Assembly (NCBI GenBank): GCA_002717515.1
Contig: PBEC01000017.1
Coordinates: forward strand, 73,159 to 137,158
From: Flavobacteriales bacterium
GTDB taxonomy: Bacteria; Bacteroidota; Bacteroidia; Flavobacteriales_C; GCA-002722245
Reading direction: 5' to 3'
DNA length: 64,000 bases
Below are positions 7,407 to 15,864 of the stretch, in pieces. The position numbers were made by a program, and so were the translations under genes. The notes beneath the pieces are model-generated. The model did no database searches. It worked only from the letters and a program-made list of their open reading frames with translations, and was not told the DNA's origin. Each line of letters opens with the position of its first letter. Positions within the stretch are counted from its first letter, which is position 1.

Positions 7407-7994
7407 TTATTTCATTTTTTTTATCACAAAGTATCCTATGAGCATGAACAGCAACCCCACTCCGAGAAGAATGGGAACTAATTTTGGGTCAACTTTTTGA
7501 TATTTTTTTGGAAGCAACTCTTTTTCTCCAAAAGACTTAAGAGTAAAGTTTTCTTTTAAAAAGGCCAAGTCGTCTTTAAAACTACTTCCTCGAATGTCTT
7601 GAAAATAATCGATTTGATCTTCCGGAATTTGTTTTCTACTATGACCACAAATCGAAAGTCTTAATTCCTGTGCATTATTCAAAAAACCATATATTATCCA
7701 ATATTCTCCCTTTGAAACATGAAGGCCCCCATCGGAGCAAGGAGTATACAAAACAATATTTTTTTCCTTCGAAAACCCTTTAAATATGAAAATTGGCTGA
7801 AACGAAAATTTTTCATTTTCACAATCAAAATCAGTTTCGACTTTACCGTAAGCAATAAAGTCATAATGTCCACACTGCTCTAAACTGAGCTTTGGTAAAA
7901 CATCACAAACAACTGCGTAAGAGGAATGATAAAAAAGTACTAAAAAAAATAAACTACCTAACCATAAATTGTTTAACTGAACTTTTTTCCTCAT
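7407..7994 (-). CDS. Membrane-anchored exported protein with TIMP/NTR-like domain
   Basis: The 195-residue protein has an N-terminal signal (NNLWLGSLFFLVLFYHSSYA) and a C-terminal hydrophobic anchor (LVPILLGVGLLFMLIGYFVI) followed by KKMK. Between them is a small Cys-containing domain with CDVLPKL, FIAYGKVE, YTPCSDGGLHVSKGEYW and LSICGHSR. This pattern (Cys near the mature N-terminus, a glycine-rich turn, a later C-x-R type motif) recalls tissue-inhibitor-of-metalloproteinase or netrin-type domains seen in Bacteroidota. That is a resemblance, not a firm assignment. It overlaps the 3' end of the upstream T9SS gene by 41 bases, so the two are probably translationally coupled. Function unknown. 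Confidence 0.65.
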   Translation of the reverse strand: MRKKVQLNNLWLGSLFFLVLFYHSSYAVVCDVLPKLSLEQCGHYDFIAYGKVETDFDCENEKFSFQPIFIFKGFSKEKNIVLYTPCSDGGLHVSKGEYWIIYGFLNNAQELRLSICGHSRKQIPEDQIDYFQDIRGSSFKDDLAFLKENFTLKSFGEKELLPKKYQKVDPKLVPILLGVGLLFMLIGYFVIKKMK

Positions 7995-10812
7995 TACTAA
8001 CTTTTACATAATAAATACCAGATGCAAAATTACTTACGGCAATTAAATCATCCAATTGATTACCTGCTAGAAATTGCTTCGTATATACAATTTGTCCATT
8101 ACCATTGAGCAATTCCAGGCTGAAATCTTCATTCAATGTTTGTGAGGAGATTACACGAATTGAGTTGGATTCATTTAAAACTTCAAATTCAAAACCGTTT
8201 AGTTCCTCTGTAGAATTGGAAGTTACGATTTTAACTGTGTAATCTTCTGTTTCACCGTAATCAATTGCTGCACAAGGGTCATCACTATCCTCTCGCCAAG
8301 CTGTTCTTACCCGCATTAAATGTTCTCCAACTTCTGCATCATTAGGTATATCAACAGTAAATTCAGCTGACCAATCATAATTTTCATTTTTTAAAATCAA
8401 CTCACTATCTTGAAAAACCTTATCATCGTTATAATCAATCCATGCCGACAAAGCATGTGCATTATAAGCGCAGGTTACTTCCAACTTATAAGATTCCCCT
8501 TGCTCCAAATCGGTGCTCTGACTTGTATAATCTCCATACCCATTTGCTGAGCAGGCTGAATAATTGTTTATGTCCTCAATTTTTAATGAACTGATATAAT
8601 CCTCTTCACAATCAGAAGTTGGGTTACAATTATAAGTTTCAACACTCTTTTTAGCTGTATCATTGCTGTGTTTTTGATCACCGGAGAGATTAGTATAAGC
8701 CATCAGTTGATAAGTTTTCACTGTTGAAAAATCGATTTTATTTCCAAAACTGAAATCCTTAATCTCACCACTTTCTATTTCATCAGTTAAAGTATCTCTA
8801 TGTATGGCACCATCAACAACCAACACCAATGGAATATCTTGTAATTTTTGTATTCCATAATTTTTAACCGATATCGTTACGGTTTCATCTTTCAATCCTA
8901 CATCAGATGAAGGGGATTTAATTTGAGTCACACCTGCATCTTTCTGATAGGGAATTTCAATTACGGATAAAAGTGTATCATTTGATCGATCACCATCACC
9001 TGAATGACCTGAAAAAACAGTTAAATTGTATTCACCCGAAACAGATAAATCGACTGTTGAAGCAAAAGTGAACGATGCTGTATCTCCAGGTTGAAGGGTA
9101 TTTGAAAAAATCTCTGTGACTGTATTTCCTTCAAAGAAATAACTAAGATTAAAGTTAGATAGAGGGTTTTTACCTATATTCTTAATCAGAATTTTAACTG
9201 CCTCGGCCCCCGTTAAGTGTCCACTTTCTGGAGAAACAACCTTAACTAAAGAAACATCGTAATCATTTTCGGTACCAATTTTAAAACTAAAAATACCAGT
9301 TTCCCAACCAGAAGACCCTATAAATTCTCCTGTATACCAAAAAGTTATTCCATCGGTAGGATCTACTGTCATTTGAGAGTAATCACCAAATCTATTGGTA
9401 TTTGTTTGTACGCCTGAGCCGTCAAAGGCATTTGATTCAGATATAGTCATCTGAGACAAGTTATCGTCTTTTTTTCTTCCTGTAAAACGAATACCTGGAT
9501 AAGTTGTTGAACTTGAAACTGAATAAGCCAAACCAATATTCCCCTGTTTATCCAATGCAATACTTCCCATCCACCTATTGTCACTATCGGGAGCATAAGT
9601 ACTTTGTTGATTTATTTTCCAGGTACCACTTTCTTCATGAAGTTCGTACCATCTTACGGCAGATTTTATTGAGGAGGACTGATCAACATCAACTGAATGA
9701 CATAACGTTAAAGCATTGTAATCTTCAAACGAACGATAATGAGCCATATACATAAAAGCCCCAGGTACTCCATCTAACTTTTCTGAAACTCCCGGTTGGG
9801 TAATATCATCCCAGTTTTCGTCAAATTCCGCATCAAAAGGAGCAACATTCAACTCTTGTTTCAATTCAATTTTTGAGTTTGAAGTGTTGTTCCAATCTAC
9901 TGTCATCTCCCAAATTTTAATTCTATCACTGCCTTGAGCCCATCCATCATCCTGAAAATAAAAAAAGTTAATTGGAGTGCTGGGCAAATCGTCTCCACTT
10001 GCATGAGCAGGAAGGGCACTAAAAAACCCATTTGTTTGTAGATTTGGGAAAGTCAAGGCTACCATTCTTGCGGAGGCATCTCCCGCCAGCATTTTAGTCC
10101 TTTCAAAGCATACTGCATTTTGCACACTCATATTTGCTGTCATATAATACCCATCTCCCCATATTGAAAACTTTGGATAGTCTGGAAAATCATCAAATTG
10201 ATATTCGTAGTAATACCATTCACCCAGGGGATCGCTTGTTTTCGATATAGCAATTAAAACTTTATTACTGGACGTTTGAAACTGACTTATGAACCATCGA
10301 TCAGCAAATTGATCATACATAACAATTGGATCACCATCGTCTGAACTTCCCGGAAAAACAGAGGACAAAGAGGTTGGCCCCCACAAACTGTTTCCATTCT
10401 TATCAAAAACCTGCATTGCACAGTTAACCATTTGAACATAATGATTTATTCCAACCGCTCCACTGGGATCAGGAGGAGTCGCACCCTGAGAGGACTGATC
10501 AATACCCTGCCATGATTTTATAGGAGTTAAAGCCAAAGACCTTTTATGGCCAACCTGAATGACAGGGTCTTCTTTTGTAGGTTTTGCGTTGGCATTTATA
10601 TACTTGTACCTACGCAATTTATTTTTTACTATTTTATTTTTACGAAACATAGGTCGAGCTTTTTCCTTAATTTCTCGAAGCGACTCAACCACACCAAAAT
10701 CACATGGTGTTTTAACTGATTTTTCCGGATACAAAGGTTTACTTTTTTTTATTTCAACTTGGGCCTGAAGGGCTAAACTCGCGATAAAAAAAACAAAAAT
10801 TAAATTTCTCAT
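7954..10812 (-). CDS. T9SS-exported surface protein with CARDB-like and GEVED domains
   Basis: The 952-residue protein starts with a signal peptide (MRNLIFVFFIASLALQAQ). A long region of about residues 90-520 describes a beta-rich fold of unknown role with repeated Trp and Asp motifs (DPSGAVGINHYVQMVN, DQFADRWFISQF). Two CARDB-like Ig-type repeats follow (around VSLVKVVSPESGHLTG and AGVTQIKSPSSDVGL). Then comes a GEVED domain (SACSANGYGDYTSQS to DYGETEDYTVKI). The end is a T9SS type A sorting domain (GQIVYTKQFLAGN, SGIYYVKVSNEEKSSVKQFM). It is therefore expected to be exported across the outer membrane and attached or released. It lies 45 bases downstream of the LytTR regulator and overlaps the TIMP-like gene. 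Substrate or ligand unknown. Confidence 0.88.
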   Translation of the reverse strand: MRNLIFVFFIASLALQAQVEIKKSKPLYPEKSVKTPCDFGVVESLREIKEKARPMFRKNKIVKNKLRRYKYINANAKPTKEDPVIQVGHKRSLALTPIKSWQGIDQSSQGATPPDPSGAVGINHYVQMVNCAMQVFDKNGNSLWGPTSLSSVFPGSSDDGDPIVMYDQFADRWFISQFQTSSNKVLIAISKTSDPLGEWYYYEYQFDDFPDYPKFSIWGDGYYMTANMSVQNAVCFERTKMLAGDASARMVALTFPNLQTNGFFSALPAHASGDDLPSTPINFFYFQDDGWAQGSDRIKIWEMTVDWNNTSNSKIELKQELNVAPFDAEFDENWDDITQPGVSEKLDGVPGAFMYMAHYRSFEDYNALTLCHSVDVDQSSSIKSAVRWYELHEESGTWKINQQSTYAPDSDNRWMGSIALDKQGNIGLAYSVSSSTTYPGIRFTGRKKDDNLSQMTISESNAFDGSGVQTNTNRFGDYSQMTVDPTDGITFWYTGEFIGSSGWETGIFSFKIGTENDYDVSLVKVVSPESGHLTGAEAVKILIKNIGKNPLSNFNLSYFFEGNTVTEIFSNTLQPGDTASFTFASTVDLSVSGEYNLTVFSGHSGDGDRSNDTLLSVIEIPYQKDAGVTQIKSPSSDVGLKDETVTISVKNYGIQKLQDIPLVLVVDGAIHRDTLTDEIESGEIKDFSFGNKIDFSTVKTYQLMAYTNLSGDQKHSNDTAKKSVETYNCNPTSDCEEDYISSLKIEDINNYSACSANGYGDYTSQSTDLEQGESYKLEVTCAYNAHALSAWIDYNDDKVFQDSELILKNENYDWSAEFTVDIPNDAEVGEHLMRVRTAWREDSDDPCAAIDYGETEDYTVKIVTSNSTEELNGFEFEVLNESNSIRVISSQTLNEDFSLELLNGNGQIVYTKQFLAGNQLDDLIAVSNFASGIYYVKVSNEEKSSVKQFMVR

Positions 10813-10857: not shown

Positions 10858-11592
10858 TTAAACTACTCCTTGAAGCAGTTTTAATACAGATGATTTTTTT
10901 CTCGTTGAGATCGGAACGGAGGAACCATCAAACATTTTTAAATATCCTCCATCTATTTTAATATATTCTTTTAAGTGATCAATATTAATTAAATGACTCT
11001 GATGAACTCTGTAGAAACCAAAATCCGACAACATCCTGTCATATTCCTTTAAGGTTTTTGTTACCAACATCTTACTTCCATCAACAAAGTAAAACTGTGT
11101 GTAGTTGATGTTGGACTCACACCTGATTATATTTCCTATTTCAACAACTTCAATTTTATCCTGAGAATGAAGAGCCAAACGCTTGTTCGACTTATCCTCC
11201 TCTTTAATGTTCGCCTTCAACAATTGATAATCATCATTATTTATGGACTTAACCTTATCCACTGAAGATTTTAATTCATCCAGGTCAATAGGCTTTAGTA
11301 AATAATCAACAGCGGACAATTTAAAAGCCTTAATAGCATATTCATCTGAGGCCGTTGTGAAAATTATTTTAAAATTAATTTCTCCCAATAATTCTAGCAG
11401 ATCAAACGCTGTACCCTGATTGATTTGAATATCAAGAAAAACAACATCTGGCGATTTTGATTTGATTACTTTGGCTGCAGAAACAACTCCGTCTGCTGTT
11501 CCAACCACCTCAACTTCAGGACAAAACTCATTTAAATCTTGAATTAAATTGTCTCGAAACTTTTCAATGTCATCTACTACAACTGCTCTCAT
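10858..11592 (-). CDS. LytTR-family response regulator, orphan
   Basis: The N-terminal receiver domain has the acidic pair Asp7/Asp8 (VVVDDIEKF), phospho-acceptor Asp54 (VVFLDIQI), Thr80 and Lys100 (DYLLKP). The C-terminal LytTR DNA-binding domain covers about 140-240 (IIRCESNINYTQFYF, LSDFGFYRVHQSHLINIDHL). It should be activated by a sensor kinase and bind DNA as a dimer. I choose the ATG at 11592 (244 residues, MRAVVVDD); an upstream GTG at 11610 would add MLKRIK. No histidine kinase is in the window. It heads a minus-strand row with the GEVED surface protein and the TIMP-like protein, and is divergent from the frameshifted surface protein, so it may control one or both. Confidence 0.92.
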   Translation of the reverse strand: MRAVVVDDIEKFRDNLIQDLNEFCPEVEVVGTADGVVSAAKVIKSKSPDVVFLDIQINQGTAFDLLELLGEINFKIIFTTASDEYAIKAFKLSAVDYLLKPIDLDELKSSVDKVKSINNDDYQLLKANIKEEDKSNKRLALHSQDKIEVVEIGNIIRCESNINYTQFYFVDGSKMLVTKTLKEYDRMLSDFGFYRVHQSHLINIDHLKEYIKIDGGYLKMFDGSSVPISTRKKSSVLKLLQGVV

Positions 11593-11717
11593 TTTTATTC
11601 GTTTTAACACAGTTTATAACCTTGCAAACTCTTTTCAAACATTTCAGTTCAATAAAGTTTGTTTTTTTCAAATCGAGATTCAATTTACTAATAAATTAGC
11701 TCAATTAGTAAATAGTT

Positions 11718-14700
11718 ATGATAAAAAATCAATTTATTTTATATTTCACCTTTTTAATAACAGGAATATCGCAGGCCGAAATTATTGAAACTCATCGATC
11801 CGGTAAATGGACAGACTCGGAAACATGGATAAACGGAGTTAAACCGGGTCCTTCAGATTCTGTCCTGATAAATATAGGAGATACTGTTTTCATAAACTCT
11901 TCCAACACCCAATGTTTTTATTTAAAAAACATGGGCATTCTTTTCTTTAAATCTCAAACAAATTTTTTAAAATGTAAAAATGCTTTTTTTGATGATAGCG
12001 AAATCACAGGAAGTTATTCAGGCACATTTGAAACTGAAAATTTATATATCGAAGGGGGTACCATTTTTGGTCAATTCAACCTCAAAGTGTCCAATAAACT
12101 ACTCATTAAAGACTCTCTTTCTCTAAAAAGCAGAATTGGCAGTAAAAAAATTAATGATTTTATTAACCTCGGAACTCTCTTAAACCCGGCAAACGAAAAC
12201 ATTATTCTATTTGGTAATTTACAAAACACAGGAACTATACTATTGAATGAAGGAACCTTAACTTTCATGAATCCAAGCGTTATAAATGGGTACCTTTCTG
12301 TATCTAAACTCAAAATGAACAATAGCTTAGTCGTCATGGACACATTAATAGTCAGTGAAGAGCTGGGAGGTGAAGGCGAGTTAATCAATAAAGGCGTTAT
12401 TAAACTTGGAATGATGAATACAAATTTCAAAATTGACTCATTAAATCTAAGTTACCCCAACAATGAACTTCATCTCATTCGAAATGGACACCAAAAAATC
12501 CCGAAAATCAGTAAGAATAGAGCAGAAAAAATAGTGCTTTCAGGGAAAACAAAATACACACTAAATACAGTAAATTATATTCGTACTCTAGATATAAAAA
12601 GCAAATCTTCAATAGAATTGAAAAAACCCTTAAGCCTGGTTTCCCTTTATTGTAATGATACTTCTCACCTCAGCGTATCTGATGATTTCACATTCGACAA
12701 CACTCAAAACTTCTATTTTGGAAAAAAATCAACACTTGAAATTAATAACAATCAAAGTTTTAATCACTCTATACAAGTGGGCAACCTTTCAATACCTAAT
12801 TCAGGAAAATTGACTTTAAATTCCGACGATACTTTAAAAATCGGTGGAAACTTTACAGGAGAAGGAATTGTTAATGGAAATCCGATTATTGAATACAATG
12901 GAAGCAACAGGCAAAAGATCAAAAAAAAAAGATTATGGAACAATGATTTATAACAATTACAGCAACGACTCGTCGACAATCTATAGTAACATTTCAATTG
13001 AGAATCTTAAGATTATGAAAGGTAAACTTAAAGTTGGTGACCTTAAATTAAACAAATGCACAATAGATTCCTTAGGAAAACTAATAATTGGAGGGCACAA
13101 ACCTATTTTTATGGACACAACTAAAATTAAGGGTTGTCTCATAATTCAATCCGACGATGCCCTTCCACAGTTTTACTTTATATCAATTCAAAAAAACGGA
13201 AAATTTATAAACAACTCCAGTTCTGATGTTGTAATTACAAAAGGTATAGAAAACGACGGAGCACTCAAAGGCTGCAAAGGAACTGCCTGTGATTATCTTT
13301 TTTTAAACGATTCCGTTTTCATTTTAGGAAAAGACACTGCATTTATACCCAGAGTAAAAGCTAACAACTTATACAATAGAGGGATTGTTTCAATAAATAA
13401 AAAAATCGACGTAGATTCTTTATTTAATCTTGGAGGAGGGGTACTTGTATTATCTACCGACACTCAAAACACACTTGGCTTTATGGACTTCAGCTCTGAT
13501 TCAAACACCGTTGTCTTTAATAAAAAAGGAAACCAAATTTTCGCAAAGTCGCTAGGTGTTTTTCAAAATTTAACAATTCAAAACGAAGGAAGTAAATCAA
13601 TTTCCTCAAACATTATTGTTCACGGGAATTTAGTAATACAAAAATATTCGCATTTAAAGACTGACTCATTCCAAATTATAGGAAACCCCTACGGTTTGCT
13701 AAAAATTGATTCTCTTGCAAAACTGACTGTTGGTGATAACTTTAGTCGTAAACCAATAGAATTCCCATTATTCTTTTCAAAAATAAATTGTCATGACTCC
13801 TCTGTGGTTATATATGCCTCTATGGCAGATCAAAATATCTCATCTCTTCCCCATTACGGCTGCTTAACAATAGATGATGGTGCAATCGCTTCATGCAAAA
13901 AATATATTTCAGGAGATTCATTAATCGTAAAAGGAAATTTAAAATTGTCAGAATCTTCACTTCAACTTTTTATAGATGATAAAACGGTGTATTTAAAAGG
14001 AGATTGGAATGGACCTGGTGATGTAATACTTACAACAGGTAAATTTTATATTGGCGGTGATGGCAATTCGAGTGGTCAAATTCAGCCTGGAAATTCTGAA
14101 TTTATTTACAATGGGTTAAAATCACAGAAAATTAAAATTTCGGACTATCACACTTTAACAATCGATAAAATAGGTAAAGCATCTACGAGAGCAAATTCGG
14201 GAAGTTTACAAGTCAAAAATAAAGTGTTGGTAAAAAATGGAAATTTGAATTTTAACAGTGAAAAATCAAACATATATAATTTGATTGTAGAAGACAGTGT
14301 AACCTTCAGTTCAAAGTATCAGGAAAAATCATTCGAAAATATCTCCATAAGCTCCAACGGAATCTTTTTACTCAATTACGATGAGGAAATATACGTATAT
14401 GGAAATATTGATTGCGAAGGGTACTTTATTTGCAGCAAAGGAAAAATATTATTTTTAGACTCCACAAAAGATCAATCGATAAACGGGACAGGAAATATAA
14501 CCCTCAATCAAATTGATATTTCAAAAAATTTCAATTCTCTAGAAATTAATTCTGATGTATTACTCAAGGATACTCTTTTTATGACCGATGGAAGACTCAT
14601 TTTAAATGCAGAGGTTAAAATTGAAGAATCAGGATATATAAGTGGCGAAACTTTAAACAACCCGATTACAGGAGTAGGGAAACTATCACTAAATGAAGAT

Positions 14701-15555
14701 ATACCCTCTGGAACACATAAAAACATAAAGGGTTTAGGAGTATCCTTAAACTCATCTACTGATTTAGGCAAAACTTTAATTGAACGAGAATTTGAAGCTT
14801 TAGATTTAGGGAACTCAGAAAGCATCAATAGGGTTTATACAATAGAGCCATCTTACAACTACAATTTAAATGTAAACCTGTCTTTCAATTATTTCGAATC
14901 AGAATTGAACAACAACAACGAAAATGAATTAATAGTATTTAAATCCAGTGATGGAGGAATCAGCTGGAATAATCAAAGTAGTTTTTCGAACCCTCTAAAC
15001 AACTGTATTTCTCTCAATAATATTAGTAGCTTTTCAAAGTGGACTGCTGGAACATCAAACGACCGTATTCTAACGGTTGAACTACTTTATTTTGAAGCAA
15101 GAAGAGAAGATCAAAATAATGATATTATAATCAAATGGGAAGTTTTAGCTGAACTAAATACACAGGCGTACCAAATTAATTATTCTTTCGATGGTCTTAA
15201 CTTCGACTCATTAACCACATGCTATCCAAACAACAGTTTATTTTACTCCTATAATTGGCTCGATGCGCCCATTGGAACGGTTTATTTCGAATTGATTGAA
15301 GTTGAAACGGACAATACGCGAATTTTGTTGGACACTGCTGTAGTTTCTGCATTACTTGGAGAAAATCCAAAAGCCTGGGTTGTTAATAATAAAATTCACA
15401 CTCGATACTTCCCTACGGGAACATTAAATGTTTATAATGCCGGTGGTCGAATAATCATGAAAAATGAATACGAAATCTCTCATCTACCTCCCGGAATGTA
15501 TTACATTGAATTGCTGAATGAGATTGGTCGATGGACCTTTGAGTTTTTAAAATAA
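11718..15555 (+). pseudogene. Giant T9SS-type surface protein interrupted by a frameshift in an A10 run
   Basis: Two overlapping frames (11718-12953 and about 12931-15555) are one gene. The first encodes a signal peptide (IKNQFILYFTFLITGISQA) and an opening typical of Bacteroidota surface proteins (SGKWTDSETWINGVKPGPSD). It then carries beta-helix-like repeats up to a run of ten A at 12921-12930. Removing one A joins it in frame as NRQKIKKKDYGTMIYNN. That junction closely parallels an intact repeat later in the same protein (SQKIKISDYHTLTI), which shows where the true frame runs. The rest continues the repeats and ends with a WEV-x-AELNTQAYQINYS module and a T9SS-like tail (GTLNVYNAGGRIIMKN, LPPGMYYIELL). 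The joined product would be about 1,278 residues. The call could reflect a sequencing error, phase variation, transcriptional slippage or true decay. Confidence 0.8.
12921..12930 (+). repeat. Homopolymer A10 at the frameshift
   Basis: Ten consecutive A lie exactly where the reading frame changes. Nine A restore one continuous frame. Tracts of this length are prone to replication slippage, to RNA polymerase slippage, and to sequencing error. Confidence 0.9.
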
Positions 15556-15573: not shown

Positions 15574-15864
15574 TTATAAGTCGAAAATCGATTTAATCTC
15601 GTGTTTTGCCAATACACCTGAAGTATTTTTAATCAGCTTTCCCTCTTTGTAAAAGAATAAGCCTGGAACTCCTCTCACTCCCATTTGAGCAGCAAATTTC
15701 TGATGACGATCAACATCAATTTTAATAATTCTTAATTTCTCACCAAGCTCTTCTTTGAGCTCTTCCAATATAGGCATAAGTGTTTGGCAGGGACCGCACC
15801 AAGTCGCATAGAAATCTACCAAAACATTCTCACTGCTCTTAATTAACTCATCAAAATTTGCCAT
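15574..15864 (-). CDS. trxA: Thioredoxin
   Basis: The 96-residue cytoplasmic thioredoxin has the active site WCGPC (Cys23, Cys26) and the cis-Pro loop GVRGVPGLFFY. It reduces protein disulfides, using NADPH through a thioredoxin reductase that is not in this window. It is slightly shorter than E. coli TrxA (109) at the N-terminus but otherwise complete. It lies 6 bases downstream of the AlkB-like gene, so the two are co-transcribed. It converges on the frameshifted surface gene. No signal peptide is present, so it is not one of the exported TlpA-like relatives. Chromosomes in this lineage usually hold several thioredoxins, so it may not be the main one. Confidence 0.9.
   Translation of the reverse strand: MANFDELIKSSENVLVDFYATWCGPCQTLMPILEELKEELGEKLRIIKIDVDRHQKFAAQMGVRGVPGLFFYKEGKLIKNTSGVLAKHEIKSIFDL

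Follow-up and report, generated by a model that had tools for sequence, protein, structure and literature searches.

In the endosymbionts Buchnera and Blochmannia, genes with poly-A frameshifts are rescued by transcriptional slippage (PMC3017870 and references therein), and dnaX genes read in two frames at an A10 run are a known type, as in Thermus (PMC3711429). The G-tracts of bifidobacterial pilus genes, in turn, are replication-slippage switches that recur across the genus and whose length variation has been measured (PMC9187656). Among the papers listed in our literature search, none dealt with phase variation through poly-A runs in Flavobacteriales. The gene analysed here lies in a window (the whole 64,000-nucleotide stretch of DNA under study) of the genome of an uncultured Flavobacteriales bacterium, G000 (2.64 Mb, 26 contigs, completeness 91.9%), which was compared with four congeners, G001-G004. 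Most records from the same genus and family are MAGs of Flavobacteriales, and several of their names suggest marine or lake sources. The locus comprises the following features.

10858-11610, reverse strand: LytTR response regulator gene, divergent; a syntenic neighbour in G000, G004 and G003
11718-12953, forward strand: 5' part of the split gene, 411 aa, ATG at 11718, stop at 12951-12953; putative signal peptide MIKNQFILYFTFLITGISQA and N-terminal region
12921-12930, forward strand: A10 run, in the context C-A10-G at 12920-12931
12931-15555, forward strand: 3' part of the split gene, shifted by +1 with respect to the 5' part; carries beta-rich repeats and a tail at the C-terminus
about 15360-15552, forward strand: T9SS type-A-like sorting tail, at the C-terminal end of the 3' part
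15574-15864, reverse strand: thioredoxin gene, downstream of the split gene; syntenic in G004

The first frame stops seven codons past the A run. With nine As instead of ten the junction reads ATC AAA AAA AAA GAT, the frame is kept and a single stop-free frame of 1,278 residues spans 11718-15555, within which this is the only A run of nine or more. A sequence-only reading of the locus had proposed that the two frames join on removal of one A, and the proposal is borne out: over its whole length the nine-A product can be aligned with unbroken orthologues from two other genomes of the genus, and the frame junction is hence not a matter of chance. The GTG at 12844, the start listed for the second open reading frame, lies inside the first frame and was rejected as a true start. 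The same reading had likened the junction to a later internal repeat and called the protein very large; the resemblance is real (residues 387-434 against 791-839, score 62, the best of 500 shuffles scoring 58) but modest, and the size was overstated for a product of 1,278 aa.

The downstream half used alone as a query found no relatives, whereas an alignment used as the query did. The two orthologues, in the closest genomes having the gene, are both uninterrupted and syntenic: that of G004 has 1,251 aa from its ATG and 50% identity (49.7%) over the downstream part, and that of G003 has 1,286 aa from its ATG and 47% identity (47.1%). An AlkB-like gene lies downstream both here and in G004. Shorter relatives of 921-958 aa, all uninterrupted, occur in five genomes of a sister genus. 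None of these seven genes (two from congeners and five from the sister genus) contains nine or more As or Ts in a row, and the codons at the site differ: ATC AAA AAA AAA GAT TAT here in the nine-A reading, ATA AAT CCA ATC AAT TAT in G004 and CTT GAG CCT ATG AAT TAT in G003. The tract is thus not kept in related genomes, and since the orthologues are whole but devoid of the A run, the frame itself is real and the tract private to G000. The N-termini of two relatives' loci (L005 and L006) align with the 5' part, which also gives a weak, below-cut-off match to the G8 domain. Beyond the LytTR regulator gene, at 7954-10812 of the window, lies a gene for a T9SS cargo protein in which GEVED, CARDB and Por_Secre_tail domains occur. 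Promoter and terminator scans of the locus gave chance-level results.

The description of the product as a surface protein with a signal peptide and a T9SS-like tail finds its support at the level of the family and the genome. TIGR04183, the T9SS type A tail model, is matched at E<=0.1 by five of eight family members, this protein included (best E 1.9e-7), and the genome encodes the SprA translocon (PF14349 hit in an open frame of 2,431 residues at G000:C18, E 6.9e-149). It is weaker for the protein itself, whose tail scores 12.7 bits against a curated cut-off of 23 and whose putative N-terminal signal peptide was recognised by eye only. The 3' part is predicted to be all-beta (mean pLDDT 85.5, eight sequences), and a fold search of the PDB returned TM-scores near 0.1 only, with no useful match. 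Because the A10 product would lack the sorting tail and the downstream frame lacks a signal peptide, neither fragment would be expected at the cell surface.

The best explanation has, taken as a whole, about an even chance of being right: a gene for a secreted, all-beta surface protein of the T9SS type, inherited vertically and otherwise intact, has recently undergone an A9-to-A10 replication slip that is probably leaky and potentially reversible. Three lysine codons would have become a pure A9 run in this lineage, and one replication slip would have extended it to A10. The A10 allele would then yield mainly the 411-residue fragment without the sorting tail, and some full-length protein would probably still be made, because A10 lies within the range of RNA polymerase and ribosome slippage. 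We infer that the allele is real, that the tract grew rather than shrank, and that the lesion is leaky and could revert. What the comparison displays is a single gene with one surplus A in a private tract, intact orthologues and no other damage. Downstream of the tract 5.5% of single substitutions would create a stop, so that after about 50 substitutions the chance of finding none would be 6%; as no such stop is present, the slip would be younger than roughly 50 substitutions, provided that the sequence is unselected. Against a slip, mismatch repair genes (MutL and MutS-type ATPases) appear to be present, which would lower slip rates.

The wider behaviour of A runs was surveyed by reading the frames that flank all 26 A10, all 9 A11 and about 100 of the 223 A9 runs of G000, together with 83 A10 runs of the four congeners. 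Splits were called by open-frame geometry, a codon-usage frame scorer having been dropped as too weak on 80-codon flanks. On the coding strand of G000 the gene is split at three of six A10 runs, as against none off frame among 107 A8-A9 runs (Fisher 8.5e-5), the A8 counts here and below coming only from the stretches that were read. The three are this gene, a GT4 glycosyltransferase gene (L054) and a secreted lysine/glutamate-rich coiled-coil gene (L059), each with one surplus A. Over the five genomes, dnaX excluded, splits occur at 7 of 25 A10 sites, one shared split being counted in two species, and at 0 of 132 A8-A9 sites on the coding strand (Fisher 1.2e-6). Clear splits at coding-strand A runs therefore start at ten throughout the genus, and the earlier placement of the tract in a slippage-prone length class agrees with this, A10 being the length at which the genus shows bypassed frameshifts. 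The uniform direction of the surplus is accounted for by in-frame A9 runs being far commoner than A11 runs. An apparent split at an A8 run (L045) proved to be a gene boundary, with a TAA stop at the run and the ATG of the next gene overlapping it, and a further candidate (L087) looks like a gene boundary too. Other split genes were seen along the way: a PspC-domain gene of G000 at a coding-strand T9 run (L078, around 1502-1510) and, apparently, an OmpA-like gene (L092) and an uncharacterised secreted-protein gene (L093), both at A11 runs.

The splits fall into two kinds, the conserved ones needing one extra base and the private ones carrying one A too many. Within the first kind, the dnaX run is A10 in G001-G004, where the -1 frame gives the longer product, and A13 in G000; among more distant relatives A10 or A11 stands at the same place in all nine cases in which the anchor motif was found. 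The run stands at the gamma/tau point of dnaX across relatives in the Bacteroidia (L206, L168, L190, L143, L214 and more), the default frame giving the short or the long form depending on the genome. A strong candidate for conserved slippage is an outer-membrane-type gene with A10 at the same site in G003 (L198, 2069-2078, reverse strand) and G001 (L210, 1504-1513), its orthologues in G000, G002 and G004 being whole. Between G003 and G001, at a dS of 0.35, its dN/dS is 0.086 upstream of the run and, in the shifted frame, 0.079 downstream, while the other two frames give 1.0-1.5; values near 0.08 on both sides at such a distance imply that an A10 frameshift has long been bypassed, or has long been switching, in this genus. 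The second kind comprises this gene, the GT4 genes of G000 and G002, comF in G002 and the coiled-coil gene; the OmpA-like gene split at A11, for which no orthologue was found in the genus, perhaps belongs here as well. The GT4 gene, of LPS type, is syntenic beside a GT2 gene and is split by one A too many at different A10 positions in G000 (L054/L262) and G002 (L176/L263), and it is intact in three congeners. When transcription errs in A/T runs it mostly inserts bases (PMC5574713), a bias that suits the conserved, one-base-short kind better than the surplus-A kind. Nonetheless, active M.HaeIII was still made in E. coli, at basal expression, from a gene carrying one A too many in an A8 repeat (PMC3812077), and some leak is thus likely in the surplus-A kind too.

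A broader reading, possible if rather doubtful, is that the genus tolerates A10 frameshifts as a lineage trait, some of them conserved and translated through slippage (dnaX and the outer-membrane-type gene), with the surplus-A envelope genes acting as leaky, reversible dimmers of expression. It is unlikely, though to be taken seriously, that the tract is really A9 and the gene whole, A10 being an error of assembly or consensus. The sequence is probably the consensus of a MAG and has single Ns scattered through it, longer runs favour error and true slippage alike, and the surplus-A cases are all one A off; A10 may be an artefact of the consensus, or else one of the alleles in a mixture. On the other hand, a chemistry prone to homopolymer errors should also hit A8-A9 runs, none of which is off frame in G000, and A10 splits recur in independent assemblies, one of them conserved between two species. 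Single Ns stand at 78 places in about 0.43 Mb of G000, clustered in places (e.g. L128 2000-4610) and with none in the window, and suggest masked polymorphic positions.

Selected phase variation, in which the tract stays long because it benefits a surface protein to be turned on (A9) and off (A10), is distinctly unlikely here. The product would be a surface one, envelope genes are typical phase-variable classes (PMC3711429), and the repeated splitting of the glycosyltransferase gene at two positions makes on-off variation of envelope genes under selection a hypothesis to pursue. For this gene, however, the tract is absent from the orthologues, so that no switch is maintained across the genus; the run is the only one of its length in the gene, contingency loci would be expected to have tracts longer than A10, and mismatch repair genes appear to be present. 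The switch proposed by the sequence-only reading thus finds neither a tract in the orthologues nor a programmed-frameshift signal, and selected variation can be entertained only as a possibility.

That the gene died recently, with A10 fixed and decay begun, is more improbable still. A frameshift in a probably non-essential gene would fit such a course, and G000 also holds the T9-split PspC-domain gene and other split genes. Yet there is no second lesion in 2.6 kb and no other stop in the nine-A reading, which upholds the earlier argument against long-term decay. Neither more than one disabling lesion nor relaxed constraint was found, the downstream part evolving no faster than in the relatives (G003-G004 identity 45.9%, below both G000 values). 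Programmed rescue at the RNA level, with RNA polymerase slippage at A10 as the normal route of expression, is very unlikely despite the use of such sites by the genus (dnaX, and the outer-membrane-type gene of G001 and G003), because the conserved sites need one extra base where this gene needs one fewer (or two extra), contrary to the mostly inserting errors of transcription, the tract is not conserved in orthologues without run or split whereas dnaX in the same genomes is, a -1 ribosomal shift meets a stop within seven codons, and a fold of 12880-13000, examined for a stimulatory RNA structure, is no better than shuffles (z 0.32).

We thus return to a recent slip in a gene of the private, surplus-A kind. 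MAG annotation labels such genes as pseudogenes or as two false genes; if bypass or reversibility of A10 frameshifts is common among free-living Flavobacteriales of marine and fresh waters, many 'broken' surface genes work, and the outer-membrane-type gene split at A10 in two congeners offers a direct test outside endosymbionts.

Set against known systems, the protein resembles T9SS type A sorting-domain surface proteins in its signal peptide (putative here), beta-rich repeats and C-terminal tail, and in the presence of SprA in its genome, and departs from them in a tail under the curated cut-off. With the bifidobacterial pilus genes it shares a homopolymer inside a surface-structure gene, the frame being set by tract length, but theirs are genus-wide with measured length variation and this one is a private tract in a single assembly. 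The two-frame dnaX genes, found in this genus and across the class, have the same A10 run and split frames, but dnaX is one base short and conserved where this gene has one base too many and is not. Finally, unlike the genes of Buchnera and Blochmannia, this one encodes a surface protein with a private tract in a 2.6 Mb Flavobacteriales genome rather than in a reduced endosymbiont; it nonetheless shares with them an AT-rich genome and a single indel in a long A run of a gene that is otherwise intact.
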